Source: Tetrahymena thermophila SB210
Taxonomy: Eukaryota > Ciliophora > Oligohymenophorea > Hymenostomatida > Tetrahymenidae
Reading direction: 5' to 3'
Assembly (NCBI RefSeq): GCF_000189635.1
Contig: NW_002476418.1
Span: 310,001-374,000, forward strand
DNA length: 64,000 bases
Positions within the stretch are counted from its first letter, which is position 1. Each line of letters opens with the position of its first letter. Below are positions 15,470 to 56,200 of the stretch, in pieces. The position numbers and the translations under genes are program-made. The notes below the pieces were generated by a model. That model worked only from the letters and a program-made list of their open reading frames with translations, searched no databases and had not been told where the DNA came from.

Positions 15470-16608
15470 GTCCTTGTATTAAATAAATTTTCTTACTCTG
15501 TGCTCTTTTCTGTTTGGTTTTATGTGCTCCCAAATGGAATTAACTAAATAATTATACCTTTGATTAGTATATAACTGATTTCAATAAGGGTTACACTCCT
15601 AACTCTCCTGAATACCATATGAGAAAGACTATCTTTAATAAGAAGCTCCAAGCTATCATTTCATTCAACAGCTTATAAGGCACCTACTATAAGAAAGGTG
15701 TTAATTAGTTTACTGATCAAAGTGAGCAAGAATTAGAAAACTAAACACTTGGTTATGTCTCTTCTGGATAAAAATCACCCTTCTCATCCTCAAGTAGATT
15801 GTTGTCATCCACCCTTTCAAATGTAACTCTTTAAGAGTTGCCTGCTTCAGTTGATTGGAGAGAAAAGAATGTTGTTACTCCTGTCAAAGATTAAGGAAAA
15901 TGCGGATCTTGCTGGGCTTTTGCCTCAGCTGCTACTATTGAAAGTCATGCTGCTATTGCTAGTGGTAAGCTAAAGACTCTTTCTACTCAATAGCTAGTAA
16001 GTTGTGCCCAAAATAGCTACAATTGTGGAGGTGTTGGAGGTTGTCATGGTTCTATTGCTGAATTGGCTTTTAGTTATGTCTAGTTATTTGGTATTACCTC
16101 TGATTATAAATACTCATATTCTTCATATTAGGGAGTCGAAGAAGGTAGCTGCAGCTTTAATCCCGATAAATAATCAGTTGAAGTTATGCTTGATGGCTAC
16201 TTGAAGTTGACTACTAATAGCTATGAAGATATTATGGTTGCATTAGCTACTGTTGGTCCTTTGGCTGTTGCAGTTGATGCTTCTAAATGGCATGATTATG
16301 AAGGTGGTGTATTCGATGGTTGCGACTACACAGCCAACATGAATGTCAATCATGCTGTCGTCTTGGTAGGCTACGGAACAGATGAAGTCGAAGGTGATTA
16401 CTGGCTCGTTAGAAATTCTTGGGGTACCAAATTCGGAGAAAATGGCTACATCAGATTAAGAAGAGAGTCTCAAACAAAGTGCGGTGTCGACTATACTCCT
16501 TTGAAAGGACAAGCATGCAAAGGCCAAGAAGCCCCAACTAGAGTTTGCGGTTAATGCGCTATCTTATACGATGCTTCCTACCCCTTAAACGTCAGAGTTG
16601 TTGGATGA
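15466..16608 (+). CDS. Cathepsin L-like papain-family cysteine protease (copy 2)
   Basis: A single-exon 380-residue frame in the ciliate code. The N-terminal ~23 residues (IFLLCALFCLVLCAP core) form a signal peptide. The prodomain is recognisable but less canonical than in copy 1; GxNxFxD appears as GVNQFTD. The mature enzyme begins near LPASVDWR. The catalytic residues are Gln143 (encoded by TAA), Cys149 in CGSCWAFA, His296 in [10 protein letters not shown] and Asn317 in RNSWG. It shares the Cys-containing C-terminal tail (VCGxCxIL, YPLxVxVVG) with the copy at 929-2056, so the two are paralogues on the same strand. The last ~250 bases are richer in C/G-ending codons than the rest, which may reflect high expression. 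Expected role: secreted or lysosomal proteolysis. Confidence 0.95.
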
Positions 16609-20401: not shown

Positions 20402-20570
20402 ACTTTACTTACCTGGCTGGAGTTTGCTATCGATCATGAAGGGTAGCGGCTTAGGGTGGAGCAGGTCATTGCACAAAAGATGTCTGTAATACCTTATTGT
20501 TCCCCGTGCGGGGAACCGAAACAGCACAATTTCTGCTAGGGGAGACGTGCACTTAGTGCTGTCTCCGCTC
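20402..20570 (+). ncRNA. U1 spliceosomal snRNA, copy 1
   Basis: About 169 nt. The 5'-splice-site-recognition sequence ACUUACCUG is at 20407-20415. Stem-loop I carries the U1-70K loop GAUCAUGAA (20432-20440). Stem-loop II carries AUUGCAC (20468-20474), the U1A-type motif. Stem-loop III is GUUCCCC/GGGGAAC (20499-20516). The Sm site AAUUUCUG is at 20528-20535. Stem-loop IV is GGAGAC/GUCUCC (20541-20566). U1 base-pairs with 5' splice sites in pre-mRNA. It differs from copies 2 and 3 at one base (t at 20424, where they have a) in the bulge of stem I. The ends are set by homology and could be a few bases off. Confidence 0.95.
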
Positions 20571-27000: not shown

Positions 27001-30000
27001 TTAATTCACTTTTTTTAATCTCAAAATGGAATATTTTGGTATCTAAATTTATTTAATTATCCATTTAATATTTACAACATAACATAAAGTCAAATAATAT
27101 AAGATATTTAACTATAACAAAACAGAATAGCAATTTATGATAATTCAACTAAAATGTTAATATTAATAAATACAGTTAAAATTAATGGAATAAGAAGCTT
27201 TAAATTTGACTAAAAATTTGAATTTTAACTTTTTATGTTAAACTGGGAATCTCTTTCTTTTGCTTTTATAAGTAATAACACTATTTATTAATTTAATGAA
27301 TTAGATAGTCAATAAATTTAAACTATTTCTCAGATATAATCTAACATAATAATGTATGAATACTGTCCATAATAATAAATAATAGTATTACAAACAGCTG
27401 ATTACTAATTATATTCAATTAATGTAATTTTTTTTAATTTCACAATATTAAAATCATTTTAATTATGGAATAATAGTTTAATAATAAAGCAAGAGTTACA
27501 ATAGGAGCACATAATGATAGACCCAAAAAAAAGATACTTTTTAATCTAAAATGCGAACAGAGTTTGATTATAATTTATTATACTTACCTTTAAATATTTG
27601 ATTTAAATACAGGAATGAATATTGATGCGTTTAAATCGGTAAATTTATTTATTTTTTTCTTATTTCATAATTTCAGACTTAATATTATTCTTTTTATTTG
27701 AAAACAATCAATTAATTTTTCAAAAAACCTATATTAATATCTTACAAGGAATATAAATAAATTACCTAAACCCCCTCAATTTTGCTTTGTGCATCTTTTT
27801 TCAATTTATTCTAAATTTCTATAAAAAATTAATTTTTTTATTAGCTCAGTGAATTTAAAAAAAATAAAACATAATTTTTAAACCCTTCCTTAAATTTTTT
27901 TAAATATAAAGCAACCTATGAAGAATATACGATAGATAACACCGTTAGTAGATATTTAAGGCCCATTATTAGTTATTTTTTACAAATTTACTACTAATGT
28001 ATTCTTTTATGGAAATTTTTAAAGCTTAGATTACTTGTTTGATTACAGAGAAAATGCAACTAATTTGCTTTATGATTTTGATAGTAATATATTAATTGGA
28101 GTTACTGGAATACTCAAATAAATTAATTCTATAAATATACCTGGAGATAAGTAATTATTTACTTATTATACAGCAAGCTAATTTTCTAAAAATGCTTTTT
28201 TCTTTTACCAAGAGAAAAACGTTATACTTCTAGTTGACTAAACTCCAATTATGTATTCTTATAACTATTTAACAAAAAATGCAACTCTTTATCAAATTGA
28301 AGTATAAAATACTTAAGGAATTTTAATAGACAAACATAAAAATATAATTTTTTTATATTCAGATTTTTATATTTCAGCTTTTGAATATTCTTCTATGTAA
28401 TTGATTGAAACATTTACACAGCCATACAATTTAACGCCTATTTAGAGTGTTTTTCTGGATACAAATCTATCTATATTAACAGTTTTATCCTTAGATAAAG
28501 TTATCACTTTTGATTTAACAGAAGTTCTTTATGCGAGTGAGGTAAATCTCCTTTAGTATCAAAACATCTAAACTTTAAATATAAATAGTGAATATTAAGT
28601 TTATTATAACATAGTTAATCTCTCTTTAAATTTGTATTAAAACACAAAATTAATTGATACCTTATTATTTGAGCCGTCTATCTATAATGTTTATCCTTAT
28701 TTAACATAGTTAATTAAGATGGATGATAGCAGCTTTATCTATATTTAATTCGAGAATTTAAATTTAATTTAATTTGATTAAGAAAAATAATAATTAACTT
28801 TAGTTAAATCAATCAAATTAAAAAATTTACCTGATAACTTTTTTTATGATAATATACAAAATTAAGTTCTAATTTTGTATGAGAATAGCTATCAATTAAC
28901 CAGTGTGAGTTTAGAAATGTAAAATTCTGCAGAGGTAAATATAACTAACTTTAATGGAGGAGATATTTCCAAATCTTTAATATATTATTAATATATTATA
29001 ATTCCTTCTACCAATATGATTTATACATTTGATTTTATTCAGCAAAAATAAAATCAAATTGTTTTTTAAAATTCACTTTAAATTTAATTTGTTTTCAAAC
29101 TTCAAGTTAAATTATTTTAGAATTTTTCTAATTAATGGTGGAATATCCCTTATGAATACGAAGAAAGGTATAACAGTAACGATTCTTATCAATAGCTTCT
29201 TATTTGTGTAGTAGCTAAAGAAAATAGTACATTTAGTATATTTATAGCCCAATTAGATACCTAAGAAATAAAATACACTTATTCAATTTAAGACAGTACT
29301 ATAACAAATGCTGTCAATGATCCTTTCCGCTAATTAATATTTTTAGTAAATAACTAAGGATAGACTCTAGTATTTAATTACAGCTTAAAATTAATTAAAA
29401 TATTATAAAACTCTTGCTTAAAGTAAGCTAAGATTTCTTTTGATTCCTATTTCATTTACTCTATATGTCCAAATGATATCATAATTTATAATGGTTTAAG
29501 CTTATAGTAGTAGTACCCTAAAATTCAATCAGGTTTAAAAGAAGTGACAAATATAATTAACATCTAATATGATAATTTATTTATTATCACATAAAAACTT
29601 AATTCTTTACTAGTAAAATTGAGTTTTGATTCCTAATATGAGCTTATTTAAATTATAGATTAAGAAGGCTTGCAGCTTTCTTAAGTTCAATTAAACAAAG
29701 ATTCAAATAATAACATCTTTCTGGAAATGCTATTTTTTTCTTATCAAAATATAATCTACTAGATAATACCTTTGTCTAAAAAATAATCTTGTAATATAGA
29801 AATTATTTAGCAAAATAGACCTTTAGAAAACATCTATTTTCAAATTGAACTAAGTAACAGTCTTAATACTTTATAAACCAGCTAGGAAAAACTTTCAGTT
29901 TTTAAAATAAATTACTTAGATCAACAATATATTTAAAGTATTGATTTAGATAGTATATCAGATAATAATATAGATCCTAATAAACCTCTTTCTTTAGTTA

Positions 30001-33000
30001 TCTAATCTAGCTAAATTATTAACAATATTTATTGGTCTAAAAATCAAACTAACTCACAAAACATTAGAAATGTATTAATAAACAATATGAGCTTAAATAT
30101 AATTGATAGCATTACCATAAACTAAAATACTTAAATGAAAAATTTCTAGATGATTGACATAATATTAAATATTGAAAATTCTCTTAATATTTCTAATTTT
30201 GATCAGGTTTATCTTTAAAATATAAAATTCAATAACACAAAGCTTGGAAATAATCAAATAATTATTTCTAACAATAAATTTGTAATTATTGAAAATATTA
30301 CAATTGATAGCGTTTAGACTGAGTAGCTTACATTTTATTTATCAGATAATACCAATTTAGTCATAAAGTAAATATTCATTAAAAATTTAAGTAAAAACAA
30401 CATTTTTTAGATATAAAACAATCAATACATTGATATATAAGATATCTTAATATCTGATTCTATCTAGATTTCAGTTTTCTTAATTTCTCTTTGCTAAAAA
30501 TTAAATATCACAAATATTTATTTAAATTAAGTAAATTCTACTTAATTATTCTATCTATAAGGGGTTACTGAAATTTAAGTTGACCAAATTACTGTAAATA
30601 GAAGCAATTAAATTAAAATATTAAGAATAGAACCATTTTATGTAAAAAATATTTATTATATTTGTATATCTGATAAAATTTAATACATCAGTGTTTTAAA
30701 TTCTTAAGAAGTTTCATTTGATATTTAGGCCTCTGATACTTCTATATCTGATTTTTATATTTATTAATCATCAATATCAAAAATTTGCTTTTAAGTATAA
30801 TCAACAAATTTACTAATTATGAATTTCAAAATCGAAGAAGTGCAACCACAAGTAGACACCACCTCAATATAAAGTTAATATATTAATAATAATAAATATG
30901 TATTTCTCTAGATTGTTGGCTTCTAAAATTGCACCATAAATAACTTAACTTCTTTGAATAATTAAATAACAGTATTATCAATAAATTAGCAACCTGATGA
31001 TGGTGGTAATTTTATTATGAGTTTTTCAAGGCTTTCAGGTTAAGAGATTAATTAGCCGTTAATTGAATTGAATTTCTTAGACACGATTCTTTTTAATGAA
31101 GTTTTATTAGAAAATAATGTGTTAAAGCAAAATTCCTATTCATCAATAGTTTATGTGAGCTAATGTAATAATATAACAATAAATAATAGTCAATTTCAAA
31201 ATAACACTAATTTTAATGGACTAGGAGGTTCTTTGTATGTTTTTAATTGTTTGCATATTTTGATATAGAATTGCATATTTAAATAAAATAAATGCTTGAG
31301 ATTAAATGGTGGAGCTATTAGTATTTAGAATTTGGTTAACATTGCTTAAGTATTTATATATAAGTGTTCATTTATACTTAATTCAGCTGTATTTTCAACT
31401 GGTGGAGCAATTAACTTATCATATTCAAATTTGATAATAGAAAGTTCTAATATTACTTCTAATACTGCGCTTATAGGAGGAGGGATCTACTATGAATAAG
31501 TTATACCAGATTTTGTATTCGAAAAATCAAATAATACTAGTAATAATAAAAATAAAATCATAAACAATAATGCCAAAATTTTTGGTCATAATATAGGCTC
31601 AACTATTAGGAAACTTGATATAGACTTATAGAATATTAAAATACCAAAAGGAAGTGTAAAATTTTTGGGTGAAAGACAAATAGAAATAAGAGAGTTTAAA
31701 AGTGGAAATTAAATCACTTTTGAAGGAATATAATTACTTGATGAAGAAAATAATCCAATATAAACTTCAAATATAAATATAAATGAATTTTAATTTTACA
31801 GCAGTGATGTCCAAAGTTTTATATAGTCATTATCGGTATCTTTGAATTGGGATTAGTCAAATAAAAAAATACAGGTGATAGGATAAGTTTAATCTAAACA
31901 ATAAATTAACAACGGAATTAACTTACAATCTCAGATTATGTATATGCCTTAAAGTAAAATGAATCTGTAAATAGTTTTAGATAGTTTACCAAAATTAATT
32001 GACTCTAAAGGGAATATTTTCTTCAATTAAGATTCGTTTTAAAAAAATTTTATAATTAATTTTACTTCTTGTTCAATCGGAGAAATTACCACGCAATAAA
32101 TTGAGTCTATAATTTGCCAAGAGTGTCCAGAAGGAAAGTACTCTTTAGATTAATACAGCACCTCTTGTAAATAGTGTCCTGATTCTGCTAAAGAATGCTA
32201 GGGTTCTACAATAAACTTAATGAATGGATATTGGAGAGAAAATGATAAAACTGATATAATAGTATATTGCAATAAAAATCCAGAATTTTGTTAAGCTGAG
32301 TCACCAGATTCAAAAGTAATTTTTATTTCCTTTAAAACCAGTATTTTAATCATGAAAATATTTAAGATCTTCTGATTTTGAATTTTTGAAGATATTTATT
32401 TTTGAAATTTTAAGACCTTTTTTATGAGAATATTTTGTTAATTTTAAAAATCTAATTATATTTAAAATTCATAAAAAAAATTTTTTCATTTAGTTTTCTT
32501 ATATTCATTTCTTTTGATAATTTTTTATTTTTGTATCATAGTTCTTGTGTTTACGTGGATACATAGGCCCACTTTGCTAATAGTGTGATTCGTATGGAAT
32601 AATTTGGGGAAATAGATACTCTTAAATTTTTAGTTCTGATGCATGCTATGATTGTAATGATAGTGTTTTACTTATAGCTTTTGAAAATTCTCTAACATTT
32701 TTGCTTATCTTTTTATATATTTTTATGATTTTAATTAAAATCATCTAAAAAATGCAAGCAAAAATTATTGGTTATTATCTGAACAGATCAGAAATCTTAT
32801 TTTTAGGATCAACACGTAACTAATTATAAAATATATCTACCATTACATAATCATTACATTTTTATTATTGAATAGTAAGACAATCAGATAAACCTTAAAT
32901 AATTACTAAAATATTAACTGATCATTTTTAAATGCTTTCATTGCTGAATTCATTTTCAGTAAATATACCTGCTTTTTTTTAATTTCCGGTTCTATTATAT

Positions 33001-34747: not shown

Positions 34748-35392
34748 CTAAAAAATTATTATTTTCACAATTAATTCAAAAATCTGGGCAATAAACATCA
34801 TGATTATTTCAAACAAAAATATGGAAATATAATTAATGTTTTTTATAAAAGTAAATAATTTAAATTTTACTTAAAAAATATTGAAAAACTATTCTACCTT
34901 TAAAGAAAAAAATATAAAATATATTTCATTATCATAAATGCTCTCAAATTATTATGTCTAGACCTTCACTTTAATTAATTATATTAAACTTCATAATTTT
35001 TTTAAAAGAAATATTTCATTTATTTTTTAAGCAACTAAAATAAACTAAAAAAATTATATTTTAGATTTTTAGTATCAACTAGCATTTATACAAATAAATA
35101 TAATTATTCTTCTTCTTCTTCTTCTTCTTCTTATTCTTCATATTTTTGTTTAAAGTGATTTCGAATAAATACATCAAATAATATTTTATGTTAGTCAATC
35201 AATACTTAAGTTCTAATTTTAGAATTTACTAGACGACATGTTATCATATTAAATCTAATGAAAATTTTATTTAATAAACTCAATTTTTCAAAATTCAATC
35301 TCTATTTATTTTCCCGTTTTTAATTATATTTTAATGAAGACACATAATTTAAGTAAGTATTATAAAATATAAAAATAAAAAATTAAATTAAA
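34748..35392. other. 3' flank of giant gene A
   Basis: AT-rich. Part (about 34960-35110) is homologous to the last bases of the window after gene C. A CTT microsatellite lies inside. No other feature seen. Confidence 0.5.
35108..35132. repeat. (CTT)n microsatellite
   Basis: About eight tandem copies of CTT in the spacer between giant gene A and the divergent U1-like gene. Confidence 0.85.
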
Positions 35393-35401
35393 AACCCATA
35401 A
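35393..35401 (+). promoter_or_regulatory. Putative snRNA upstream element (AACCCATAA) of the divergent U1 gene
   Basis: Exact copy of the nonamer found before the three normal U1 genes, 61 bases upstream of the predicted 5' end of the U1-like RNA. Its retention in otherwise strongly diverged flank argues that the gene is still transcribed. Confidence 0.65.
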
Positions 35402-35453
35402 AATTTTAAGAAATAATATACTATATTAGTTGAGACTATTTGCTAAATTAAAA

Positions 35454-35622
35454 TTTTAAATTACAATATTGTAGTTAGCTGTATATCAAAAAATATAGCA
35501 ACTAAGGTGGAGCAAATCATTGTACAAAAGATGTTTGTAATACCTTGATGTTCCAGATTGGAGCAATAAGAACAAAATTTCTGATCGGAAATAGTCATTA
35601 AATTAACCAGTTATTTCCTCTA
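35454..35622 (+). ncRNA. Divergent U1-like snRNA (variant U1 candidate)
   Basis: Aligned with U1 without large gaps. Stem I is kept with rewritten pairs and the same bulged A: GUU-A-GCUGUA pairs with UAUAGC-AAC, with loop AUCAAAAA against AUCAUGAA in U1. Stem II is closed by AUC/GAU instead of GUC/GAU, with loop AUUGUAC. Stem III is GUUCC/GGAGC instead of GUUCCCC/GGGGAAC. The Sm site AAUUUCUG is unchanged (35576-35583). Stem IV is GGAAAUA/UAUUUCC (35587-35618) instead of GGAGAC/GUCUCC. The 5'-splice-site region aligned to ACUUACCUG reads AAUUACAAU (35459-35467). Changes on both sides of stems, an intact Sm site and the upstream element favour a functional variant over a pseudogene. Expression cannot be judged from sequence. 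Confidence 0.75.
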
Positions 35623-36209
35623 TATCTCTAAACTAATCAAACAAAATACTCTCTTCTCTAAAAAATTTTAAAAAACAAAATGAAAAAGAAACTAAAAATC
35701 ATGAAATCTATTTTTTTTTTAATAAAAATATGATAATTTATATTATTTTTGCCATAAAATAAAATGGCTATTTTGATTATATTGAAAAACTGTAAAAATT
35801 CATGAATTAAATAATTAATATTTAACTTATTATTTTATAATATTTAAAATAAACAATTAATTTTTAAAACTTAAGAAATAACTTAATAAAGTATCCGACA
35901 AATAGTCTATTTATTCTTAATAAAAAAAAATAGACAAAACTGAAAATAGAAAGGTAAGAGGACAAATACATTTTCTATTTATAAAATATAATTGTTGTAT
36001 TTATAATATTTAAGCTCAAATATATTTGAAACATTTTAATTTCAAAAGAATTAATTTTGAAATTGAAAAATATTTAAACAAATGTTATGCATGGCCATTA
36101 AAACAATAGGTACTTGCGAAAAAATTTAATTTTCAAATATTTATCAAAGATATCAAAAGTAAATAATATCTATTAATTGATTTTAATAATTATCTATTTA
36201 TTAATTTAA
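35623..36209. other. Spacer between the divergent and second U1 genes
   Basis: AT-rich and noncoding. From about 35790 on it is homologous to the flank just upstream of U1 copy 3 (about 49240-49600). Confidence 0.5.
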
Positions 36210-36271: not shown

Positions 36272-36440
36272 ACTTTACTTACCTGGCTGGAGTTAGCTAT
36301 CGATCATGAAGGGTAGCGGCTTAGGGTGGAGCAGGTCATTGCACAAAAGATGTCTGTAATACCTTATTGTTCCCCGTGCGGGGAACCGAAACAGCACAAT
36401 TTCTGCTAGGGGAGACGTGCACTTAGTGCTGTCTCCGCTC
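36272..36440 (+). ncRNA. U1 spliceosomal snRNA, copy 2
   Basis: Identical by eye over 169 nt to copy 3 and one base different from copy 1. All U1 landmarks are present: ACUUACCUG, stem-loop I with GAUCAUGAA, AUUGCAC loop, stem III GUUCCCC/GGGGAAC, Sm site AAUUUCUG and stem IV GGAGAC/GUCUCC. It lies about 650 bases downstream of the divergent U1-like gene and 1.8 kb upstream of giant gene B. Confidence 0.95.
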
Positions 36441-37777
36441 ACACACCCCTTAATTAATCAAAAAAAACAAATTCTTTTCTTCTTACAATATATTTTAGAA
36501 ATTTAAATATATTAACAAAAATACTTAAAAAATTTAACAAAATAAAACCCACAAAAATTAAATTAAATATGAAAAAGAAGAAATATTTTATTTATTTACA
36601 GAATACTGAAAAAAACTTGATTTTAAAAGCATTAAAAGCTAAAAAAAATGTTAGAACTTTTAAAATATAAATCAGTATTAGTAAATTATATTAATAATTT
36701 TTATATATAATAAATATCAATTACTATATGCAGTAAATTTGTATAAAAACAAAGAAATGATTTGTATACATTTATTATTATTTTTTTTTAATTAAAAGTA
36801 TTCATTTGGTTTTCATTTCTAAATTGTAAATAAAAAGTTTTAATTATCAGTATTGTATTTATAAACGAAGAGAAATACCAAGCAAGCTAAATATGATCAA
36901 TAATGTTATTTATATTTATATTATTTAATCTTAGGTTTTAATATTAAAATAATCATTGAGAAACAACATTTAAAAACTGACCTTAAATATTTCATATATT
37001 TGGTTTTTTTAAATCAAATTTTATAATTAAAAAAAGTATATTGAAGAATTTGCTCATAAAAATTCTTATGAAATTTGCAAGTATCAATAATTTTTATAAT
37101 AAAATAAATTATATTTGAAACTCTTAACCCAAATAATTTGAAATATTTGTAATTATAAATTATTTTTGATCAGATAAGTACTTGGTGTGTATTCTTAATC
37201 AAAATTTATTAGTTATACATATGCATAATATAAAAAAAATGTATTTAAAATAACAAAAATAAATATTTTGGATAATTTTAGTTTTATTTAAATTAATGTT
37301 CTAATTTATCCAGTTTATAAATGTTAAATATATATAGGATACAATTAAAATGTTATTTTAGAAATTTTAAAATAAAATAAAAATTATAAGAATTTGAATA
37401 TAATATTTGTTTTATGAAATAAATATTTATTTTTAAATCTTATTTGTTTTTTGTTAGGTGGTATGTTAGATGAGACAGACTTTTAAAGAGAATCAAAAAA
37501 ACAGAGGCATATGAAAAATTTTAATTAAAAATATGTATAATTAAAAGGAGGAAAGCTTAAGTAACATGCAATCCGTTTCCTCTTTTATTACCTTCATATT
37601 CTTCTGTTTTAGTAAAAAAATAATTTAAAGTAATGTATATTTATTCATAATATTAGATTAAGAAGCATAAAAATGTAGTAATAATATTCTGAAACAAATA
37701 AAAATAAGTGAGATTTGAGTTTTTTTAATTAAAAATGTTTTAGTAATAAGTTTTATTAAAATTTTTCATAATTCAAG
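36441..37777. other. U1-downstream spacer of duplication unit B
   Basis: AT-rich. Homologous to the corresponding spacers of units A and C but shorter: the gcatgctagctgttaaccat block and its surroundings are missing near 37130. The tttattaccttcatattctt block is present near 37586. Confidence 0.55.
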
Positions 37778-38200
37778 TTAAAAATGAAATAATTATTTAC
37801 ACTCAATAAATAAGAATTAAAAAAAAAAATTATCCTTGCTTTTTGATTTCGCTTTAGTTATTAGATATTAATAATTTTTTAGATTATATAATTTAAATCT
37901 TAAAATTTGGGTTTTTTCATTAATAATTAGTTCAGTTTAAATTACATCATTTAGTGAAAGTTTTTTAAAAAAATTAAATATTATTGATAGAGACAAAAAA
38001 CACAAACAAACCGAATAAATAGTAAAACAATCAAACAAACAAAATTGCTAATAAACAGTAAAAAAATAAGCAAGCTAGCTCATAAACAGTAAAAAAACAA
38101 ACAAAAAATCAATCGATAAGCAAGCAAAAAGCAAAAAAAGTAGCTAATAAACAGTAAAATAATAAACTAACATACAAAAAACACAAAAACAATAGGTGCA
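37778..38200. repeat. Single ~300-bp repeat plus short CAAA-module array upstream of giant gene B
   Basis: One copy of the ~300-bp unit (37778-37990) is followed by only about four agctaataaacagtaaaa modules with CAAA tracts. It is the shortest of the three upstream arrays. Confidence 0.75.
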
Positions 38201-38214
38201 ATACAAAATTAACT

Positions 38215-41200
38215 ATGAAAATAGATTATTATATAATTATATTTTCTGTTTTATTTTCAAAGTTGCTGTGCTAGTGCTTGAATGGGGAAATTTATAATAT
38301 ATTGACTTAATAGTGCTTGAAATGTTCTATCAGCTGCTAACAATGCTTTAATACTAATGAAGACAACTGTATAAAATGCCAAACTAACACCTTTAATAGT
38401 ATATAAAATAACTTTTAATGTACTTAAACTTGTCTATAAGGTTAAATAAATACAGAAAATTAATAATGTGTTTAATGCTTAGTTGAAGGATGTATCTAAT
38501 GTGATGCTAACTAAAATTGCTTAAAATGCGAAGTTAATTTATAACTTAGTTAAGAAAACAATAAGTGCTTTCTAAAATAAAATTTTTGTGAATCAAGCGT
38601 TGAATTTATTGAATCTCCTTTTACAAAAAATTAATGCTCAAAAATATGCTCCTCTTTCACTTATTAAAATTTTGAAACTCATCAATGCGAGTAAACACAA
38701 CAATGTCCATATTTTCAAAGTAGCTTTGATAATTTTAATTAAAGAATAGTGTAAGTTAACTCATTTTTAGGTAATTAATACTTTATTAGAGGTAATTAAT
38801 GCTAATTTGCACTGGTCAACTAAAATTTTGAGATAATCAATTCAAATATACTATAAAATTTAAATAATTTTGAAGAATTATACATGTAATATGGGGTAGA
38901 AGTTAATTAAAAAAGCTTTATAGTAGGGAATTATGGCGGATGCTTAGCAAATAACAGCTTAGTTATTGCGAATTTCGCTACATCCTAAACTGTTTATTCA
39001 GAGATAGGGTTTTAGGATGATCTTAATGTAGGATATATTGATACTAATAACTAAATTGTATTTTTAATAAGCACTAATTACAAACAAATAATTGTTTTTG
39101 ATGGAATTAGTTCTTAAGTAAGTAAGTTGCCAATAAATTAATCTCCACCATAAATACTATTTTAAATTTCAAATAAATAAAATGTTACTTATTATATTAT
39201 AGATTATTAATTGAAGGTAATAATAAAATTATTTTTTTTAAAACATGTATTAAATAAATTTTATTAAAATAAATAATAGGAAATATTGTTAAGTAGAGAT
39301 AGATCCTTAATAATAAAAAATAGTACTCTAAATCTCGATTTATCATCTACTATTGTTTATTCAATATAAAAAAATGATTTTTTAATAACTGTTTCTATGG
39401 ATGTATATAGTATTCCTCGCTAATTTATTATTCAAAAAGCGGTTTTTGAAAATAATTAAATATCATTTTAAAAAATTAAGCAAGCTCCTCTTTACAATTA
39501 TAAAGTATTTTATAGCTTGAATTTAAATTCTATCATAGAATACAACTAAATAGATTACAGCATAAAAATTTCAATTTTAGATGCAAATTCAGAATAAATT
39601 ATTAATCAATTCAACGTAACTTCTTCATAGAAATTAAATTAGATTAGTATCTTTGAAAACTAGTGGGATAATAGCACATATATTTTTTACATTTAAAATA
39701 AACTACTATAATTCATTAATATGACAGATTATTTAAGGATAATAACATAGGATGGATAATCATAAATCAAATTCGAATAATTAGTATAAACAGTAGACAC
39801 TCCTTTTATTACTGAGTTATCAACTTTTACAACTGCAATATTTTACAAGAACAATATATTAGACATATTCCTGTCTCAAATTTTATAACCTAAAACCTAT
39901 AATTATCAATAGATTAGAGTGCAATACAATATATCAGATAATACTTTTTAAATGAAGTATTTTTATAATAATTAATACCAATAATTATACTATGTAGATA
40001 ATTTTATGGTTAATTAAAACTAATTAATGCTTAGCATTGATAATAGTCAGTAGAAGAATATATTTTATATATTTGATGGTAATTAAATTTATGATTAGTA
40101 ATCATTAAGATTTTCTAAAATTTAATTTTACTTGCAAAGTTTATAAAAAATGCCAAGACTTAACACTAGATAAATTTAATATTAAGTCTAATAAGATTTC
40201 TAAAGTTATGATAACCTTTAATTAGTAAGCAATAAATATCTTATTCTAAGTAAAATAATAGACTCAACAGTTTACGAATACGTTTTCAGCATATCTAACA
40301 AATAGTTACTTATTAACTATACTTATAACTATACTTATTTATTTAGTTCAAACTACTATCTCTAAAAGTGGGACATGCTTTTAGTCTAAGATGTTCCTCA
40401 AATATACAATCTAAAAGAACAGTTAAAATTCATAAATAATGAATAAAATTATTTTTTTTCTTTAGAAAATTTTATTATTATAAATGAGGATTAAATAATC
40501 TATTTAACTACAAATGATTAAAATATAAATGTGCTATACATGGTAGACTTTTAATTAAACTAAATCTAGAGTATATTTATATTTGATTAAAATTAAAGCC
40601 CAAGCTTTTGGTTAATTTATGGATCTGATTATCCTTATCCCTTAATTGCATAAAGTGATATTATTTATATTTATTTTTCTATGACTATGTGCTAACCATT
40701 CTCTATAAAAAAAAAATAATTTATTTATTAACCAGTTAATTTAAAGGGTTAATTTTAACTATATCCCTCTATAAATTATTAACAAACTGGAGAAATATTT
40801 ATATTTTAAAATTAGCTGATATATGTATATTCACTTGATTTATAAGAAAGCACTTTTCTTAATATTGGACTAACCTATCCAATTCCTTAGACCAACTACT
40901 AACCATTAATTTTTAATCAACAATTTGTGTTTTATTATGACCAAAATTACTTTTACACTTTTGATATGTAAAAAAAATAATATACTCAAATAACGGCAAC
41001 TACTAGCTTTACTCTTTACTAAAATGGTTATATTGACTTTTACGCAATAGACAATTAAAATTAGTATATAAAAAAATCTGAAAGTATTATAGATGTAAAT
41101 AATTAGATAACTATTAAGAATAAAATTGAAAATAGTAATCATTTGGGAAATATTTCTACCGATGAAAATACATTAATTCACTTTTTTTAATCTCAAAATG

Positions 41201-44200
41201 GAATATTTTGGCATCTAAATTTATTTAATTATCCATTTAATATTTACATAATCACATAAAGTCAAATAATATAAGATATTTAACTTTATTAAAACCGAAT
41301 AGCAATTTATGATAATTCAACTAAAATGCTAATACTAATTAATACAGTTAAAATTAATGGAATAAGAAGCTTTCAATTTGACTAAAAATTTGATTTTAAA
41401 ATTTTTATTTTAAACTGGGAACCTCTTTCTTTTGCCTTTATAAGTAATAACACGATTTATTAATTTAATGAATTAGACAGTCAATAAATATAAACTATTT
41501 ATCAGATAGAATCTAACATAATTATGTATGAATACTGCTCCTAATAACAAATAATAGTAGTATAAACAGCTGATTACTAATTATATTCTATTAATGTAAT
41601 TTTTTTTTAATTTCACAATATTAAAATCATTTTAATTATAAAATACTAGTTTAATAATAAGACAACAGTTCCTATTAGACCAAAAAATGATAGACCAAAA
41701 TAACAGATACTTTTTAATCTAAAATGTGAACAGAATTTGGTTATAATATATTTTACCTATATTTAAATATATGATTTAAATACTGGAATGTTATCTGATA
41801 AGTTTAAATAGGTAAATTTATAAATATTTTTTCTTATTACAAAATTTCAAACTCAATATTATTTTTTTCTATGAAAAAAATCAACTAATTTTATAAAAAT
41901 ATTTTTCATATAATTTAAAAATCTTTTGATTTTAAGTTAAATAAATAAATAATTTTAATTTTATATTTTGAAAAACCTATATCAATAACCTCCTGTGGAG
42001 GATAAATTACCTTAACCACTCATTTTTATTTTTGTGCATCTTTTTTCAAGTTTTATTCTAAATTTCTTTAAAAATTTTTAAACCCTTCCTTAAATTTTTT
42101 TAATAATAAAGCAACTTATGAAGAACTTACAATTGATAACACCATTAGTAGATATTTAAGGCCCATTATTAGTTATTTTTTATAAATTTAGCAGTAATTT
42201 TTTCTACTATGGAAATTTTAAAAGCTATAAATACTTGTTTGATTACAGAGAAAATGTAACTAATTTGCTTTATGATTTTGATCATAATATATTAATTGGA
42301 GTTACTGGAACACTCAAATAAATTAACTCTATAAATATACCTGGAGATAAATAATTATTTACTTATTAGACAGTAAGCTAATTTTCTAAAAACGCTTTTT
42401 TCTATTACCAAGAGAAAAATATTTTACTTTTAGTTGATTAAACTCCAATTATGTATTTTTATAATTATTTAACAAAAAATATAACTCTTTATCAAATCGA
42501 AGTCTAAAATACTTAAGGAATTTTATTCGATAAATATAAAAATATAGTTTTTTTATATTCAGATTTTTATATCTCAGCTTTTGAATATTCTACAATGTAA
42601 TTGATTGAAACATTTACACAGCTATAAGATTAAACACCTATTTAGAGTGTATTTTTGGATATAAATCTATCTATATTAACAGCTTTAACCTTAAATAAAG
42701 TTATCACTTTTGATTTAACAGAAGTTCTTTATGCGAGTGAGGTAAATCTTCTTTAGTATCAAAACATCTAAACTTTAAATATAAATAGTGAATATTAAGT
42801 TTATTATAACATAGTTAATCTCTCTTTAAATTTGTATTAAAACACAAAATTAATTGATACCTTATTATTTGAAACATCTATCTATAATGTTTATCCTTAT
42901 TTAACATAGCTAATTAAGATAAATGATAACAACTTTATCTATATTTAATTCGAGAATTTAAATTTAATCTAATTTGATTAAGAAAAATAAAAATTAGCTT
43001 TAGTTAAAAGAATCAAATTAAACAATTTACCTGATAACTTTTTTTATGATAAATTACAAAATTAAGTTCTAATTTTGTATGAGAATAGCTATCAACTAAC
43101 CAGTTTGAGTTTAGAAACGCAACATTCTGCAGAGGTTAATATAACTAACTTTAATGACGGAGATATTTCCAAATCGTTAATATATTATTAATATATTATA
43201 ATTCCTTCTACCTATATGATTTATACATTTAATTTTATTCAGCAAAAATAAAATCAAATTACTTTTTAAAATACACTTTAAATTTAATTTGTTTTCAAAC
43301 TTCAAGTTAAATTATTTTAGAATTATTCTAATTAATCGTGGAATATCCCTTATGAATACGAAGAAAGGTATAACACTAATGACTCATATCAATAGCTTCT
43401 TATTTGTGTTATAGCTAAAGAAAATAGTATATTTAGTATATATATAGTCCAATTAGATACCTAAGAAATAAAATACACTTATTCAATTTAAGACAGTATC
43501 ATAACGAATGCTGTCAATGATCCTTTCCGCTAATTAATATTTTTAGTTAATAACTAAGGTTAAACTCTAGTACTTAATTACAGTTTAAAATTAATAAAAA
43601 TAATATAAAACTCTTGCTTAAAGTAAGCTAAGATTTCTTTTGATTCCTATTTCATTTACTCTATATGCCCAAATGATATCATAATTTATAATGGTTTAAG
43701 CTTCTAGTAGTAGTACCCTAAAATTCAATCAGGTTTAAAAGAAGTGACAAATATAGTTAACATCTAATATGATAATTTATTTATTATCACATAAAAATTT
43801 AGTTCTTTACTAGTAAAATTGAGTTTTGATTCCTAGCATGAGCTCATTTAAATTATTGATTAAAAAGGTTTGTAACTTTCTAAAGTTGAATTAAACAAAG
43901 ATTCAAATAATAACTTTTTTTTGGAAATGCTATTTTCTTCTTATCAAAATATAATCTACTAGATTATACCTTTGTCTAAAAAATAATCTTGTAATATAGA
44001 AATTATTTAGCAAAATAGACCTTTAGAAAACATTTATTTTCAAATTGAACTAAGTAACAGTCTTAATACTTTATAAAGCAGTTAGCAAAAACTTTCAGTT
44101 TTAAAAATAAATTACTTAGATCAGCAATATATTTAAAGCATTTATTTAGACAGTATCTAACAAAAAAATATAGATCCTAATAAACCTCTTTCTTTAGTTA

Positions 44201-47200
44201 TCTAATCTAACTTAATAACTAACAATATTTATTGGTCGAAAAATTAAACTAACTCACAAAACATTAGAAATTTATTAATAAACAATATGAGCTTAAATAT
44301 AATTGATAGCATTACCTTAAACTAAAATGCTGAAATGAAAAATTTCTAGATGATTGACATAATTTTAAATATTGAAAATTCTCTTAATATTTCCAATTTT
44401 GATTAAGTTTATATTTAAAATATAAAATTCAATAGCACAAAACTTGGAAATAATCAAATAATTATTTCTAACAATAAATTGGTAATTATTGAAAATATTA
44501 CAATTGATAGCGTTTAGATTGAGTAGCTTGCATTTTATTTATCAGACAATACCAATTTGGTCATAAAGTAAATTTTCATTAAAAATTTAAGTAAAAGAAA
44601 CATTTTTTAGATCTAAAACAATCAATATATTGATATATAAGATATTTAAGTATCTGATGCTATCTTGATTTCAGTTTTCTAAATTTCTCTGTGTTAAAAA
44701 TTAAATATCACAAATATTTATTTAAATTAAGTAAATTCTACTTAATTATTCTATCTATAAGGGGCTACTGAAATTTAAGTTGAGCAAATTACTGTAAATA
44801 GAAGTAATTAAATTAAAATATTAAGAATAGAACCACTTTACTCAAAAAATGTTTAATATATTTGTCTATCTGATCAATTATAATACATCAGTGTTTTAAA
44901 TTCTTAAGAAGTTTCATTTGATATTTAGGCCTCTGAAACTTCTATATCTGATTTTTATATTTATTAATCATCAATATCAAAAATGTTCTTTTAAGTATAA
45001 TCAATAAATTTAGTAATTAAGAATTTAAAAATCGAAGAAGTGCAACCACAAGTAGACAACTCCTCAATATATAGTTAATATATTAATAATAATAAATATG
45101 TATTTCTATAGATTGTTGGCTTCTAAAATTGCACCATAAATAATTTAACATCTTTGAATAATTAAATAACAGTATTATCAATAAATTAGCATATTGATGA
45201 TAGTGGCAATTTTATTATGAGTTTTTCAAGGCTTTCTGGATAAGAGATTAATTAACCGTTAATTGAATTGAATTTCATAGATACGATTCTTTTTAATGAA
45301 GTTTTAATAGAAAATAATGTGTTAAAGTAAAATTCCTTTTCATCAATAGTATATGTGAGCTAATGTAATAATATGACAATAAATAATAGCCAATTTTAAA
45401 ATAACACTAATTTTAATGGGATAGGAGGTTCTTTGTATGTTTTTAATTGCTTGCATATTTTGATATAAAATTCCATGTTTATATAAAATAAATGCTTAAA
45501 ATTGAATGGTGGAGCTATAAGTATTTAGAATTCAGTTAACATTGCTTAAGTACATATATATAAGTGTTCATTTATACTTAATTCAGCTTCATTTTCAACT
45601 GGTGGAGCGATTAATTTGTCATACTCAAATTTGATAATAGAAAATTCTAATATTACTTCTAATAATGCGCTTATAGGAGGTGGGATCTACTATGAATAAG
45701 TTATACCAGATTTTGTATTAGAAAAATCAAATAATACTGCTAATAATAAAAATAAAATCATAAACAATAATGCTAAAATTTTTGGTCATAATATAGGCTC
45801 AACTATTAGGAAACTTGATATAGACTTATAGAATATTAAAATACCAAATGGTAGTATAAAAATTTTGGGTGAAAGACAGATAGAAATAAGAGAGTTTAAA
45901 AGTGGAAATTAAATAACTTTTGAAGGAATATAATTACTCGATGAAGAAAATAGTCCAATTTTGACATCAAATATAAATATAAATGAATTTTAATTTTATA
46001 GCAGTGATGTTCAAAGTTTTATATAGTCATTATCTGTATCTTTGAATTGGGATTAGTCAAATAAGAAAATACAGGTGATAGGATAAGTATAATCTAGGCA
46101 ATATATTAACAACGGAATTAACTTACAATCTTAGATTATGTATACGCCTTAAAGTAAAATGAATCTGTAAATAGTTTTAGATAGTTTACCTAAATTAATT
46201 GACTCTTAAGGGAATATTTTCTTCAATTAAGATTAGTTTTAAAAAAATTTTACAATTAATTTCGCTTCTTGTTCAATCGGAGAAATTACAATGCAATAAA
46301 TTGAGTCTATAATTTGCCAAGAGTGTCCAGAAGGAAAGTATTCTTTGGATCAATACAGCACCTCTTGTAAATAGTGTCCGGATTCTGCTAAATAATGCTA
46401 TGGTTCTACAATAAACTTAATGAATGGATATTGGAGAGAAAATGATAAAACTGATATAATAATATATTGTAATAAAAATCCATAATTTTGTTAAGCTGAG
46501 TCACCAGATTCAAAAGTAATTTTTTTCCTTTAAAAACAGGGTATTTAATCATGAAAATATTTAAGATCTTCTGATTATGAATTTTTGAAAATAATTATTT
46601 TGCGATTTTAAGGTGTTGGTGATAGAAATTTTCAAAAATAATTAATTTTCTCTATCCATTTTTAACTTTTTATGAGGACCTTTCATTAATTCTAAAAATC
46701 TAATTATTTTCAAAGTTTATAAAAAAATTTTTCATTAAGCTTTCTTATATTTTTTCATTTGATAATTTTTTATTTTTGTATCATAGTTCATGTGTTTACG
46801 TGGACACATAGGACCACTTTGCTAATAATGCGATTCATATGGAGTAATATGGGGAAATAGATATTCTTAATTTTTTAGTTCTGATGTATGCTATAATTGT
46901 AATGATAGTGTTTTACTTATAGCTTTAGAAAATTCTCTAATATTTTTAGTAGTCCTTTTTTATATTATTATTATTTTAATTAAAATCATCTAAAAAATGC
47001 AAGCAAAGATTATTGGTTATTTTGTGAACAAGTCAGAAATCTTATTTTTAGGATCAACATGTAATTAATTATAAAATATATCATTATTTAATCTTTCATT
47101 TTAAAAATTTTATTATTGAACAGTGGGACAATCAGATAAACCTTAAATAGTAACTAAAATATTGACTGATCATTTTTAAATGCTTTCATTACTGAATTCA

Positions 47201-49659: not shown

Positions 49660-49828
49660 ACTTTACTTACCTGGCTGGAGTTAGCTATCGATCATGAAGG
49701 GTAGCGGCTTAGGGTGGAGCAGGTCATTGCACAAAAGATGTCTGTAATACCTTATTGTTCCCCGTGCGGGGAACCGAAACAGCACAATTTCTGCTAGGGG
49801 AGACGTGCACTTAGTGCTGTCTCCGCTC
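49660..49828 (+). ncRNA. U1 spliceosomal snRNA, copy 3
   Basis: Identical by eye to copy 2 over 169 nt, with every U1 landmark (5'-splice-site-recognition sequence, four stem-loops, Sm site). It heads the third duplication unit, 3.4 kb upstream of giant gene C. Confidence 0.95.
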
Positions 49829-51103: not shown

Positions 51104-52330
51104 TAAAAATGAAATAATTATTTACACCCAATAATTAAGACTTAAGAAATAAAAAGTTATCATTGATTTTATGATTTTATTTTGGTTAATAGGTATTACA
51201 TTTTTTAAATTGTAATTTAAATCTTAAAATGCGGGTTTTTTCATACTAAATTCCTTCAGTTTTCTTTATTATTAATTTATTAACTGATTGATTAATACTT
51301 TTAAATTTCATCAGTTAATAATTAATTATTATTGATAGAGACAAAACAAACAAAAAAGCAGTATAAAAACAAATAAATAAGCAATATAAAAACAAACAAA
51401 TAATCAATATAAAAACAAATGAATAAGCAAAATAATATATAAATAAATAAAATTATTTTTAAGTTAAAAATGAAATAATTATTTACACTAAATAATTAAG
51501 ACTTAAAAAATAAAAAGTTATCCTTGCTTCATGATTTCATTTTGGTTAATAGATATTTAAATTTTTTAGATTATATAATTTAAGTCTTAAAATGTGGGTT
51601 TTTACATACATACATAATACGTCAGTTTCCTTTATTTTTAATTAATAAGTAGGTTGAGTTTTTATACTTTTAAATTTCATCAATTAGTAAATAACTATTA
51701 TTGATAGTGACAAAACAAACAAATAAAGAAATAAAGAGTATAAAAACAAACAAACAATAAGAAAATAAATAAATAAAATAATTTTTAAGTTAAAAATTTA
51801 ATAATTAATTACACCCAATAATTAAGACTTAAAAAGTATAAAGTTATCCTTGCTTCATGATTTCATTTTGGTTAATACATATTTAAATTTTTTAAATTAT
51901 ATAATTTAAGTCTTAAAATGTGGGTTTTTACATACATACATAATACGTCAGTTTCCTTTATTTTTAATTAATAAGTAGGTTGAGTTTTTATACTTTTAAA
52001 TTTCATCAATTAGTAAATAACTATTATTGATAGTGACAAAACAAACAAATAAAGAGTATAAAAACAAACAAATAAGAAAGTAAATAAGTAAAATAATTTT
52101 TAAGTAAAAAATTTAATAATTAATTACATCCAATAATTAAGGCTTAAAAAAAATAAGTTATCCTTGCTTTAGGATTTCATATTGGTTAATAGATATTTAA
52201 ATTTTTTAGATTGCAATTTAAATCTTAAAATGTAGTTTTTTAATTGATAGTTTGTTCGTTTAAATTACATCATTTAGTGAATTTTTTTATAAAAAATGAA
52301 ATATTATTGATAGAGACAAAACAAACAGTC
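51104..52330. repeat. Array of four ~300-360-bp AT-rich repeats upstream of giant gene C
   Basis: Copies begin near 51104, 51460, 51789 and 52099, each with aaataattatttacaccc-like, aataattaagacttaaa and ttatccttgcttcatgattt blocks, and end in CAAA-type tracts. The second and third are nearly identical over long stretches (ttacatacatacataatacg in both), so part of the array expanded recently. Confidence 0.85.
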
Positions 52331-53190
52331 AAATAAATCAGTAAAACAAACAAACAAACAAACAAACAAACAAACAAACAAACAAAGGAGCTCATAAATA
52401 TTAAAAAACAAGCAAGCAAGCAAAAAAAACAAACAAATTATCTAATAAACAGTAAACAATCAATCAAACAAACTAGCTCATAACAAGTAAAAAAATAAAG
52501 TTTAAAAAACAATAAACAAATAAATAAATAAAAAAACAAACAAACAAATTATCTAATAAACAGTAAAACAAACAAATTAGCTCATAAATAGTAAAAAAAA
52601 AAGCAAAAAAGCACACAAACTTGCTTCTAAACAGTAAAAAAAACAAACAAGCAATTAAACAAACTAGCTCATAAAAGGTAAAAAAACAAGCAAACAAATT
52701 AGTTCATAAATAGTAAAAAACAAACAAGCAAGTAAATAATTAAATAAACAAACTAGCTGATAAGCGGTAAAAAAAGTAAACAAACAAACTAGCTAATAAA
52801 CAGTAAAAAAATAAAATAAATAAATCAAACAATCAAATAAACAAAGAAATTAGCTCATAAAGTAAAAATATAAGCAAAGATTAAAGCAAACATACAAACT
52901 AGCTTATAAACAGTAAAAAAACAAACAAGCTAATAAATAGTAAGTAATAGAACAAACAAACTAGCTCATAAATTGTAAAAAACAAACAAACAAGTAAATA
53001 AATAAATAAATAGACAGACACACAAACAAACAAACAAACAAACAAGATAGCTAAAAAAAATAAAAAAATAAATAAACTATCTAATAAACAGTAAAAAATC
53101 AAGCAAAAAATCAATCAAGCAAAAAAAAGCTATCTAATAAACAGTAAAATAATAAACTAGCAAACAAAAAGCACAAAAAAATAGGTGCAA
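52331..53190. repeat. CAAA-rich modular repeat upstream of giant gene C
   Basis: Longest of the three arrays: about sixteen variants of the agctcataa-n-gtaaaaaa module separated by (CAAA)n, including one run of about ten uninterrupted CAAA near 52350. It ends just before the start codon of gene C. Reverse-strand frames through it encode only Phe/Leu/Cys/Ile-rich nonsense. Confidence 0.85.
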
Positions 53191-53203
53191 TACAAAATTA
53201 AAT

Positions 53204-56200
53204 ATGAAAATAGATTATTATATTATTACATTTTCTGTTATATTTTCAAAATTACTCTGCTAGTGCTTGAGTGGGGAAATTTATAATATATTGACTTAAT
53301 AATGCTTGAAATGTTAAAACAGTTGCTAACAATGCTTTAATACTAATGAAGACAACTGTATAAAATGCCAAACTGACACCTTTAATAGTATATAAAATAA
53401 CTTTTAATGTACTTAAACTTGTCTATAAGGTTAAATAAATACAGAAAATTAATAATGTGTTTAATGCTTAGTTGAAGGATGTATCTATTGTGATGCTAGC
53501 TAAAATTGCTTGAAATGCGAAGTTAATTTATAACTTAGTTAAGAAAATAACAAGTGCTTTCTAAAATAAAATTTTTGTGAATCAAGCGTTGAATTTATTG
53601 AATCTCCTTTTACAAAAAATTAATGCTCAAAAATATGCTCCTCTTTCACTTATTAAAATTTTGAAACTCATCAATGCGAATAAACACAACAATGTCCATA
53701 TTTTCAAAGTAGCTTTGATAATTTTAATTAAAGAATAGTGTAAGTTAACTCATTTTTAGGTAATTAATACTTTATTAGAGGTAATTAATGTTAATTTGCA
53801 CTGGTCAACTAAAATTTTGAGATAATCAATTCAAATATACTATAAAATTTAAATAATTTTGAAGAATTATACATGCAATATGGGCTAGAAGTTAATTAAA
53901 AAAGTTTTATAGTAGGGAATTATGGTGGGTGTTTAGCAAATAACAGCTTAGTTATTGTGAATTACACTACATTTTAAACTGTTTATTCAGAGACAGGCTT
54001 TTAGGATGATCTTAATGTAGGATATATTGATATTGATAACTAAATTATATTTTTAACAAGCCCTAGTTAAAACCAAATAATTGTTTTTGATGGAATTAGT
54101 TCACAAGTAAGTAAGTTGCCAATAGATTAATCTCCATCATAAATCTTATTTTAAATTTAAAATAAATAAAATGTGACTTATTACGCTTTTGATACTTAAT
54201 TGAAGGTAATAATAAATCAATTTTTTTTTAAACATATTTTAAATAAATTTTATTAAAATAAATAATAGGAAATATTATTAAATAAAGATAGATCCTTAAT
54301 AATAAAAAATAGTACTATAAATATCGATTTATCATCTACTACTTTTATCTATTCAATATAAAAAAATGATTTTTTAATAACTATTTCTAGATAATATTTT
54401 AGTAATATTATTCAAAAAATGTCTTTTGAGAATAATTAAATATCATTTTATTAAATTAAGGAAGTTCCTTTTTTCAATTATAATGTATTTTATAGCTTGA
54501 ATTTAAATTCGATCATAGAATATAATTAAATAGATTACAGCTTAATAATTTCAATTTTAGATGCGCATTCAGAATAAATTATTAATGAAATCAACATAAC
54601 TTAGCAGGAATTAAATTAGATTAATATCTTTGAAAACTAGTGGGATAATAGCACATTTATTTTTTACATTTAAAATAAACTACTACAATTCATTAATATG
54701 ACAGATTATTTAAGGATAATAACATAAGATGGATAAGCATAAATCCAAATCGAGTAATTAGTAAAAACAGTAGACACTCCTTTTATTACAGAGTTATCAA
54801 CTTTGACAACTGTAATATTTTATGAGAACAATATATTAGACATATTCATGTCTCAAATTTTATAACCTAATTCCTATAATTATCAATAGATTAGAGTGTA
54901 ATACAATCTATCAGATAATACTTTTTAAATAAAGTATTTTTATAATAATTAATACCAAATGTTTTACTATGTAGATAATTTTAACGTTAATTAAAACTAA
55001 TTAATGTTTAGCATTGGTAATAATCAATAAAATAATTAATTTTATTTATTTGATGGTAACCAAGTCTATGATTAGCAATCTTTAAGATTTTCTAAACTTC
55101 AATTTTACTTGAAAAATTTATAAAAAATGCCTAGACTTAACACTAGATAAATTTAATATTAAGTCTAATAAGATTTCTAAAATTATGACAACCTTTAATT
55201 AGTAAGCAATAAATATCTTATTTTAAGTAAAATAATAGACTCAACAGTTTATGAATACGTTTTCAGCATATCTAACAAATAGTTACTTGTTAACTATACT
55301 TATAACTACTTTTATTTATTTAGTTCAAGCTACTATCTCTAAAAGTGGGAAATGCTTTTAGTCTAAAATGTTCCTCAAATTTATAATCTGAAAACACAAT
55401 AAGCATTCATAAATAATCCATAAAATTATTTTTTTTCTTTATAAAATTTTATTATTGTAAATGAGGACTAAATAATTTATTTAACTAGAAACGATCAAAA
55501 TATAAATGTGCTATACATGGTAGACTTTTAATTAAACTAAATTTAGAGTATATATACGTTTAGTAAAATGCAAAGACCAAGCTTTTGGTTAATTCAAGGA
55601 TCTATTAATCGCTATTAACCTTATCCATTAATTGCATAAAGTGATATTATTTATATTTATTTTTCCATGACTAACTGCTAACCATTCTCTATTAAAAAAA
55701 AATAATTTATTTATTAATCAGTAAATTTATAGGATTCATTTTAACGTTATCCTTCTATAAATTATTAACAAACTGGAGAAATATTTATTTTTTATGAGTA
55801 GCTGATATATATATATTCTTTTGATTTACAATAAAGCACTCTTCTTAATATAGGAATAACCTATCCAACTATTAATAGTAATTACTAACCATTAATTTTT
55901 AATCAACAATTTGTGTTTTATTATGACCAAAATTACTTTTACACTTTTGATATGTAAAAAAAAAAATATACTCAAATAACGGCAGCTACTAGCTTTACTC
56001 TTTACTAAAATGCTGAAATTGACTTTTATGCAATAGATAATTAAAATTAGTATATAAAAAAATCTGAAAGTATTTTAGATGTAAATAATTAGATAATAAT
56101 TAAGAATAAACTTGAAAATAGTAATTATTTGGGAAATGTTTCTACTGATGACAATACATTAATTCACTTTTTTTAATCTCAAAATGGAATATTTTGGCAT

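Follow-up and report, generated by a model that had tools for sequence, protein, structure and literature searches.

Does the strongly diverged U1-like sequence that lies among normal U1 genes in the window (the whole stretch of 64,000 nucleotides analysed here, C129:310001-374000) specify a working minor U1 snRNA, or is it a decaying copy? An earlier note had taken this sequence (35454-35622, hereafter v1) for a structurally conserved variant U1 beside three normal U1 genes, and all three of those genes were recovered by Rfam, at 97.5-97.9 bits each (RF00003). The identity of v1 itself was examined by an all-family Rfam cmscan of 35300-35800, which returned a single match at E up to 1, to RF00003 at 35457-35588 (35.9 bits, E=1.5e-7), and v1 is thus a diverged relative of U1. 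The covariance check proposed in the note is therefore significant by its E-value, but the score falls short of the curated gathering score of the family (69.5 bits). A chance resemblance to U1 is ruled out by this E-value together with the pairing of 11 out of 11 altered helix positions described below. U11 of the minor spliceosome is also a U1-like RNA that reads a different 5' splice site; v1 is unlike it in matching RF00003 only, and a U11-type RNA is ruled out by that single match, by the U1-type loops I and II, and by the genome searches for U12 (no match) and U6atac (none over the cut-off). A pattern for stem II gave 0 matches in viral and prokaryote contigs, a collection with no ciliate set in which near records may be left out.

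Features of the variant v1 and of the normal U1 genes in the window (window positions).
Feature	Position	Strand	Evidence
snRNA upstream sequence element of v1 (AAACCCATAA)	35392..35401	+	common to normal U1 genes and v2, at nearly equal spacing
Promoter-proximal stretch, near-identical in v1 and v2	35402..35456	+	1 substitution in 70 over 35387-35456
Variant U1-like RNA v1 (35457 equivalent to nt 1; ends approximate)	35457..35621	+	cmscan RF00003, 35.9 bits; alignment to normal U1; MFE -38.0, z -4.4
5' recognition end UAAAUUACAAU (normal U1 UUACUUACCUG)	35457..35467	+	same in v2; alignments
Stem-loop I: UAGUU-A-GCUGUA / UAUAGC-AACUA, loop UAUCAAAAAA (normal GAUCAUGAAG)	35472..35504	+	alignment to normal U1
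Stem-loop II, loop AUUGUAC (normal AUUGCAC)	35505..35545	+	alignment and fold
Stem-loop III, double change from C-G (v2, normal) to A-U (v1) at 35555/35559	35549..35565	+	alignment
Sm site AAAAUUUCUG	35574..35583	+	AAUUUCUG same as in normal U1
Stem-loop IV: outer 8 pairs present; v1 lacks two inner pairs of v2	35587..35618	+	fold comparison
3' box-like element ACTAATCAAACAAAA	35632..35646	+	TAATCAAA 240 bases past upstream element
Normal U1 gene linked to v1	36275..36437	+	Rfam; counterpart beside v2 identical over 163 bases
Normal U1 gene	20405..20567	+	Rfam
Normal U1 gene	49663..49825	+	Rfam

The note was right that the Sm site is unchanged, that the upstream element AACCCATAA is kept at nearly equal spacing, and that stem IV has been rewritten and the bulged A of stem I retained. 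Beyond these claims, v1 has breaks in helix H, a changed 5' end and the AUUGUAC loop, and there is a better-kept copy, v2. Relative to normal U1 (RF00003), the variants share the order of the stems, the Sm site, AUCA in loop I, AUUG in loop II, the promoter element and the 3' box, whereas they differ in the 5' end, the U1A-type loop, the flanks of loop I and the sequence and length of stem IV. Loops I and II are the sites of U1-70K and U1A in U1. Against the consensus used for comparison (loop I GAUCA.GAAG, loop II AUUGCAC), both loops of v1 deviate (UAUCAAAAAA and AUUGUAC), with AUCA and AUUG retained.

The second variant copy, v2, is located at C129:374311-374479, so that it starts 311 bases beyond the window end, and shares 92.3% identity with v1 over 169 bases. 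A DNA search of the genome with v1 finds these two copies only. In an Rfam search of the genome (101 Mb, 445 contigs) v2 matches U1 at C129:374314-374474 with 61.1 bits, which leaves both variants below the gathering score; because this search scored only the best first-pass candidates and missed v1 itself, further diverged U1 relatives could have been missed. The same search finds five normal U1 genes, all on the plus strand of C129. A normal U1 gene starts 653 bases downstream of the end of v1 and 633 bases downstream of the end of v2, and the block of variant plus U1 aligns throughout, which indicates that the block was duplicated once. Across C129:300001-394000, neither the U1 gene at 20405 nor that at 49663 has a variant upstream; the block homology ends between variant and U1 for the gene at 49663, and at the U1 promoter for that at 20405.

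Normal U1 and v2 agree at 109 of 163 positions in one alignment, and 35 of the 50 changes from U1 to v2 are from G/C to A/T. Has the fold survived this replacement? Eight helices (38 pairs) of normal U1 were fixed by hand, and the expectation was calculated by random replacement at the local base composition. In v2 all 11 altered helix pairs still pair (4.6 expected, P=6e-5), six of them with changes on both sides, which argues that the variant lineage evolved as a structured U1. In v1, 16 of the 38 pairs are altered and 14 of these pair (6.1 expected, P=3e-5). Most changes are common to both copies, which makes the tests for v1 and v2 interdependent, and the helix set is biased towards pairing, having been chosen with all sequences known. 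The claim that all four stems of v1 pair holds for stems I, II, III and the outer part of IV, but not for the inner part of stem IV, where two pairs are missing, and the count of compensatory changes suggested in the note is offset by two broken pairs in helix H. This helix forms the base of the four-way junction; v2 keeps it with a double change from C-G to U-A, and v1 has two mismatches. In total v1 lacks four of the 50 pairs of the v2 fold, two in helix H and two in inner stem IV, on a reference that is derived from v2 and so favours it. Stem-loops I-IV are complete in v2 and, with the exception of inner stem IV, in v1.

The free fold of v2 comprises helix H and stem-loops I-III, along with an Sm region that stays single-stranded and a stem IV of 11 bp (MFE -48.5, z -5.9; 0 of 200 shuffles as good). 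In the free fold of v1, helix H is missing and a hairpin takes up the 5' end; relative to this free fold, the U1-like one is about 10 kcal/mol costlier. Free folding is no test of function, since the free MFE fold of normal U1 also lacks helix H.

How much of this structure could persist without function? Both variants could be pseudogenes that lost their function and drifted towards A+T, with promoter and pairing kept only through a recent duplication into v1 and v2. The excess of A/T-ward changes, the sub-gathering scores of both copies and the pairs absent in v1 speak for such a course, as do the altered loops, which in human U1 bind U1-70K and U1A; loops I and II of U1 are likewise given as the U1-70K and U1A sites in PMC4383343. 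It is opposed by the 11 of 11 altered pairs kept between U1 and v2 and by the z-score of the v2 fold. Moreover, the pairing was kept mostly on the branch before v1 and v2 split, and therefore a recent duplication cannot account for it. To judge from these pairs, structural selection acted along the long branch that leads from U1 to the variants, and we regard the loss of function in both copies as rather unlikely.

The comparison of v1 with v2 extends this question to the more recent past. The bodies differ at 13 of 166 positions, against 36 of 364 in the near 5' flank (p=0.52, no significant slowing), a resemblance that the pseudogene explanation can claim for itself. The body has evolved more slowly than the intergenic part (89/494, p=0.001) and faster than the linked normal U1 bodies (0/163, p=2e-4), and we therefore consider present-day constraint on v1 and v2 to be partial. 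Nine of the 13 differences fall in eight pairs of the v2 fold, of which four still pair in v1 (1.9 expected, P=0.07), including one double change from C-G to A-U in stem III, and four do not. Over 35387-35660 the two copies align without an indel in 274 bases, compared to 16 indel events in the flanks; for the body only, the indel test gives p=0.09.

With normal U1 as outgroup, the helix H changes at 35468 and 35570 both lie on the v1 side in two automatic alignments. Outside stem IV, where the two alignments agree, the polarised changes number seven for v1 (the breaks in helix H and the double change of stem III are among them) and one for v2 (P=0.07). When the complete body is counted, the ratio of v1 to v2 changes is 7:4 or 8:3 in the two alignments, which disagree in stem IV because this stem is hard to align, and there is no significant asymmetry; a clear-cut faster evolution of v1 is thus not established. 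Of the two copies, v1 is the likelier relaxed one by these comparisons. The view of the earlier note that this is a structured variant U1 and not a neutral pseudogene stands for the lineage, mostly through v2 and the changes shared by v1 and v2, while for v1 the evidence is mixed (four of eight pairs).

In the promoter of v1, ACCCATAA lies at 35394 and RNA nt 1 at about 35457, and the counterparts in normal U1 are 36211 and 36275. Between v1 and v2 the promoter (35387-35456) has 1 substitution in 70 bases compared to 125 in 858 for the flanks (Fisher p=4.6e-4), or p=0.018 against the near 5' flank alone; this low rate of promoter change is a further point against the view that both copies are pseudogenes. 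The 3' box stretch (35623-35660) has 3 changes in 38, not significantly below the flanks (p=0.34). From the upstream element AACCCATAA to the 3' box TAATCAAA the distance is 240 bases in v1 and v2 and 243-244 bases in four of the five normal U1 genes; the gene at 49663 has no exact TAATCAAA match. The combined pattern AACCCATAA-N218..246-TAATCAAA occurs 11 times in 101 Mb, namely at four normal U1 genes, both variants and five other places, and the reversed control pattern 0 times.

Could the unusual features of v1 reflect specialisation instead of decay? If both variants were active, a 5' hairpin in v1 could hide the end that pairs with the splice site until it is opened, and v1 would be a regulated U1. 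A 7-pair hairpin, AAUUACA/UGUAGUU, is possible in both variants (window 35459-35476; L007:316-333 in v2), and it would mask the splice-site-pairing end, in competition with helix H. In accord with regulation, it is part of the v1 MFE fold, where nt 4-8 are unpaired with a probability of only 0.05-0.12, its seven pairs can also form in v2, and the v1 promoter is as conserved as that of v2. On the other hand, helix H was lost through two separate changes in v1, a protein-free fold says little, and the hairpin is absent from the v2 MFE fold, and we consider a regulated v1 quite improbable. We favour relaxation: without a good helix H and inner stem IV, v1 is probably a duplicate that has become relaxed or is decaying, with no more than weak activity.

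A further difference between the variants and normal U1 concerns the 5' end, which in both copies is AAUUACAA in place of ACUUACCU. The UUAC that faces positions +1 to +4 of the donor persists. Opposite +5, -1 and -2, C, C and U have been replaced by A, A and A, and the bases opposite +7 and -3 are also altered, so that the variant end matches GUAAUU donors. The U1 of Stentor retains ACUUACCU (PMC9505925).

Which donors are present in this genome? Introns were inferred with a gene model that has no donor preference beyond GT/AG, trained on 134 kb of C129 and 30 kinesin loci; it yields 167 introns (median 81 bases; 69 pass a stricter filter), which are model predictions from sequence, unchecked against RNA. 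An earlier model (116 introns) was dropped for drifting into long false introns, and a second gave 53. By RNA-seq, 106,937 canonical GT-AG splice sites are reported for T. thermophila (PMC3274533). Read-through of TAA and TAG is seen in kinesin exons and in a papain-family protease at 15346-16608 (code 6), both of them conserved, which marks the genome as that of a ciliate; the Tetrahymena named in the note fits.

Among the 167 introns, A occupies +3 in 159, +4 in 130 and -2 in 116, while +5 is A in 85, U in 53, G in 20 and C in 9. G at +5 is unenriched in all three intron sets (13/116, 3/53 and 20/167), which come from the same 134 kb. A and T dominate donor +5 in C129:280001-414000 and L035-L064, though normal U1 faces this position with C. 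The donor GUAAUU, matched by the variant, is found in 19 of 167 cases, and GUAAGU, the canonical U1 match, in 3. There is, however, no distinct class of introns with U at both -1 and +5: among the 167, about 9 such donors would be expected and 6 are present (p=0.27), and among the 69 better supported introns there are 2 where about 4 would be expected (p=0.19).

A better general fit of the variant end to donors is not seen: it forms more pairs than the canonical end at 58 of 167 donors, equally many at 27 and fewer at 82. It has the lower duplex energy at 45 of the 167. In separating the donors from 4,712 other GU sites (plus strand, 134 kb), the canonical end reaches an AUC of 0.82 and the variant end 0.64, and among the 64 possible base choices at U1 nt 4, 9 and 10 of an otherwise canonical end, the variant AAA ranks 43rd and the canonical CCU 14th. 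The exon side of the inferred donors favours canonical U1. Given this preference, the lack of linkage between U(-1) and U(+5), and the lower AUC, the variant could serve only a subset of donors. Of the proposal that v1 is a functional minor U1 with its own specificity, the variant U1 lineage remains, but the 167 inferred introns hold no class to match it.

Taken together, the data support a variant U1 lineage that is real and, in v2, most likely functional; for v1, which may be a minor U1, function is uncertain. We put it at about an even chance that v1 and v2 form a two-gene family of U1-derived variant snRNAs in which v2 is a working minor U1 and v1 a relaxed or decaying duplicate. The variants would have arisen through a duplication within the array of U1 genes, followed by one further copying as a block of variant plus U1, and selection would have held their ancestor to the U1 architecture as A+T pressure and altered bases at the 5' end reshaped the RNA. 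Transcription would start from a Pol II snRNA promoter and be followed by 3' box processing, an Sm core would assemble at AAUUUCUG, and U1-70K would bind stem-loop I through the retained AUCA. In our view v2 most likely still yields a minor U1-type Sm snRNP. The 5' end AAUUAC would pair with GUAAUU donors, the A of U1 nt 4 lying opposite the U of +5, and would pair less well with an AG before the site. This explanation is favoured by the v2 fold, the 11 of 11 pairs, the single promoter change in 70, the 3' box spacing, the 274 bases free of indels and the identical 5' ends. It is weakened by a body divergence close to that of the near flank, the sub-gathering scores, the 35 of 50 A/T-ward changes, as under drift, and the poorer donor separation by the new 5' end (AUC 0.64 vs. 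0.82).

Other spliceosomal snRNAs of the genome bear on whether the variants could belong to a larger set. A diverged U2 class comprises five copies (C329:205096-209036, L016-L020) with 0-3 differences per 190 bases, scoring 99-104 bits compared to 146-150 bits for normal U2. All five have the upstream element AACCCATAA; a 3' box-like element also lies behind the U2, variant U2 and U5 copies, with an exact TAATCAAA in four of the five variant U2 copies and a deviation in one (L020). Variant U2 keeps GUAGUA and CCUUCUC, the latter able to pair with GAGAAGG of U6. Two distinct U4 classes adjoin at C172:335958-339056, one with a single copy (L023) and one with three (L024-L026), in which L026 differs from the other two at 12 of 136 positions. 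The two U5 and four U6 copies are near-uniform, with no comparably diverged second class. For U12 there were 0 genome matches at E up to 1 (42 candidates scored), in agreement with the reported absence of U11 and U12 in Paramecium bursaria (PMC12862383), and for U6atac 3 weak matches, none over the cut-off (46 scored).

These classes would be consistent with the variant U1 being one member of a second, developmentally used snRNA set that includes the diverged U2 and U4. The five near-identical variant U2 copies with their AACCCATAA elements and the pair of U4 classes fit such a set. The uniform U5 and U6 do not, the two U1 variants resemble each other much less closely than the variant U2 copies do, and variant U2 retains GUAGUA and hence gives no new branch-site reading; we attach little credence to the idea, and joint working of variant U1 with variant U2 and U4 is a guess. 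Its fullest form, a partly parallel set (two variant U1 copies, five variant U2 copies and two U4 classes) that shares U5 and U6 with the normal one and in which variant U1 would start splicing at GUAAUU donors poorly paired by canonical U1, perhaps in one life stage, is a long shot. If true, it would represent an alternative major spliceosome whose origin did not involve the U12 system.

For the two-gene family favoured here, a close parallel is human vU1. To our knowledge, variant U1 RNAs are known mainly from animals, and Orum and colleagues reportedly worked on Tetrahymena snRNA genes about 1991-1992. The variant U1 literature includes human, fly and planarian papers among the matches listed; in these matches, drawn from the open-access literature, we recognised no paper on ciliate U1 variants, and an earlier description may exist. 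In PMC5159530, many human vU1 have an altered 5' end and altered protein-binding regions, and a role at atypical splice junctions is proposed. Like the ciliate variants they are U1 paralogues with their own Pol II genes and with changes in the 5' end and protein-binding regions; unlike these, which are predicted from sequence, they are expressed, and few differ much within the RNA, as both ciliate variants do (PMC5159530). A further difference is that the ciliate variants number just two, and that each has a linked normal U1 gene.

Such a compact pair would allow a direct test of whether an altered 5' end gives a U1 introns of its own. In ciliates genes can be removed and the nuclei studied apart. 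The variants also show an A+T-rich genome rewriting an snRNA while its fold persists, and with only 20 of 167 inferred introns carrying G at +5, donor reading in such genomes is open to test.

Several minor observations concern the surroundings. Four of the five normal U1 genes are identical; the one at 20405 departs from them at a single base, with T at 20425 in place of the bulged A in stem I. Over window 20405-61463 and further, as far as C129:375899, the sequence resembles a tandem array with units of about 13-16 kb, in each of which a U1 gene precedes large open frames (27702-32375, 37693-46554 and 52037-61463); the three frames scanned from the first two gave no Pfam match, and predicted introns lie at matching places across the units. 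At 4955-7989, 3 kb of degenerate tandem repeats with periods of about 48-62 and 124 have no Pfam match; their minus strand is open in code 6, and their G+C content is as high as 49% per 2 kb, whereas that of the region is about 23%.
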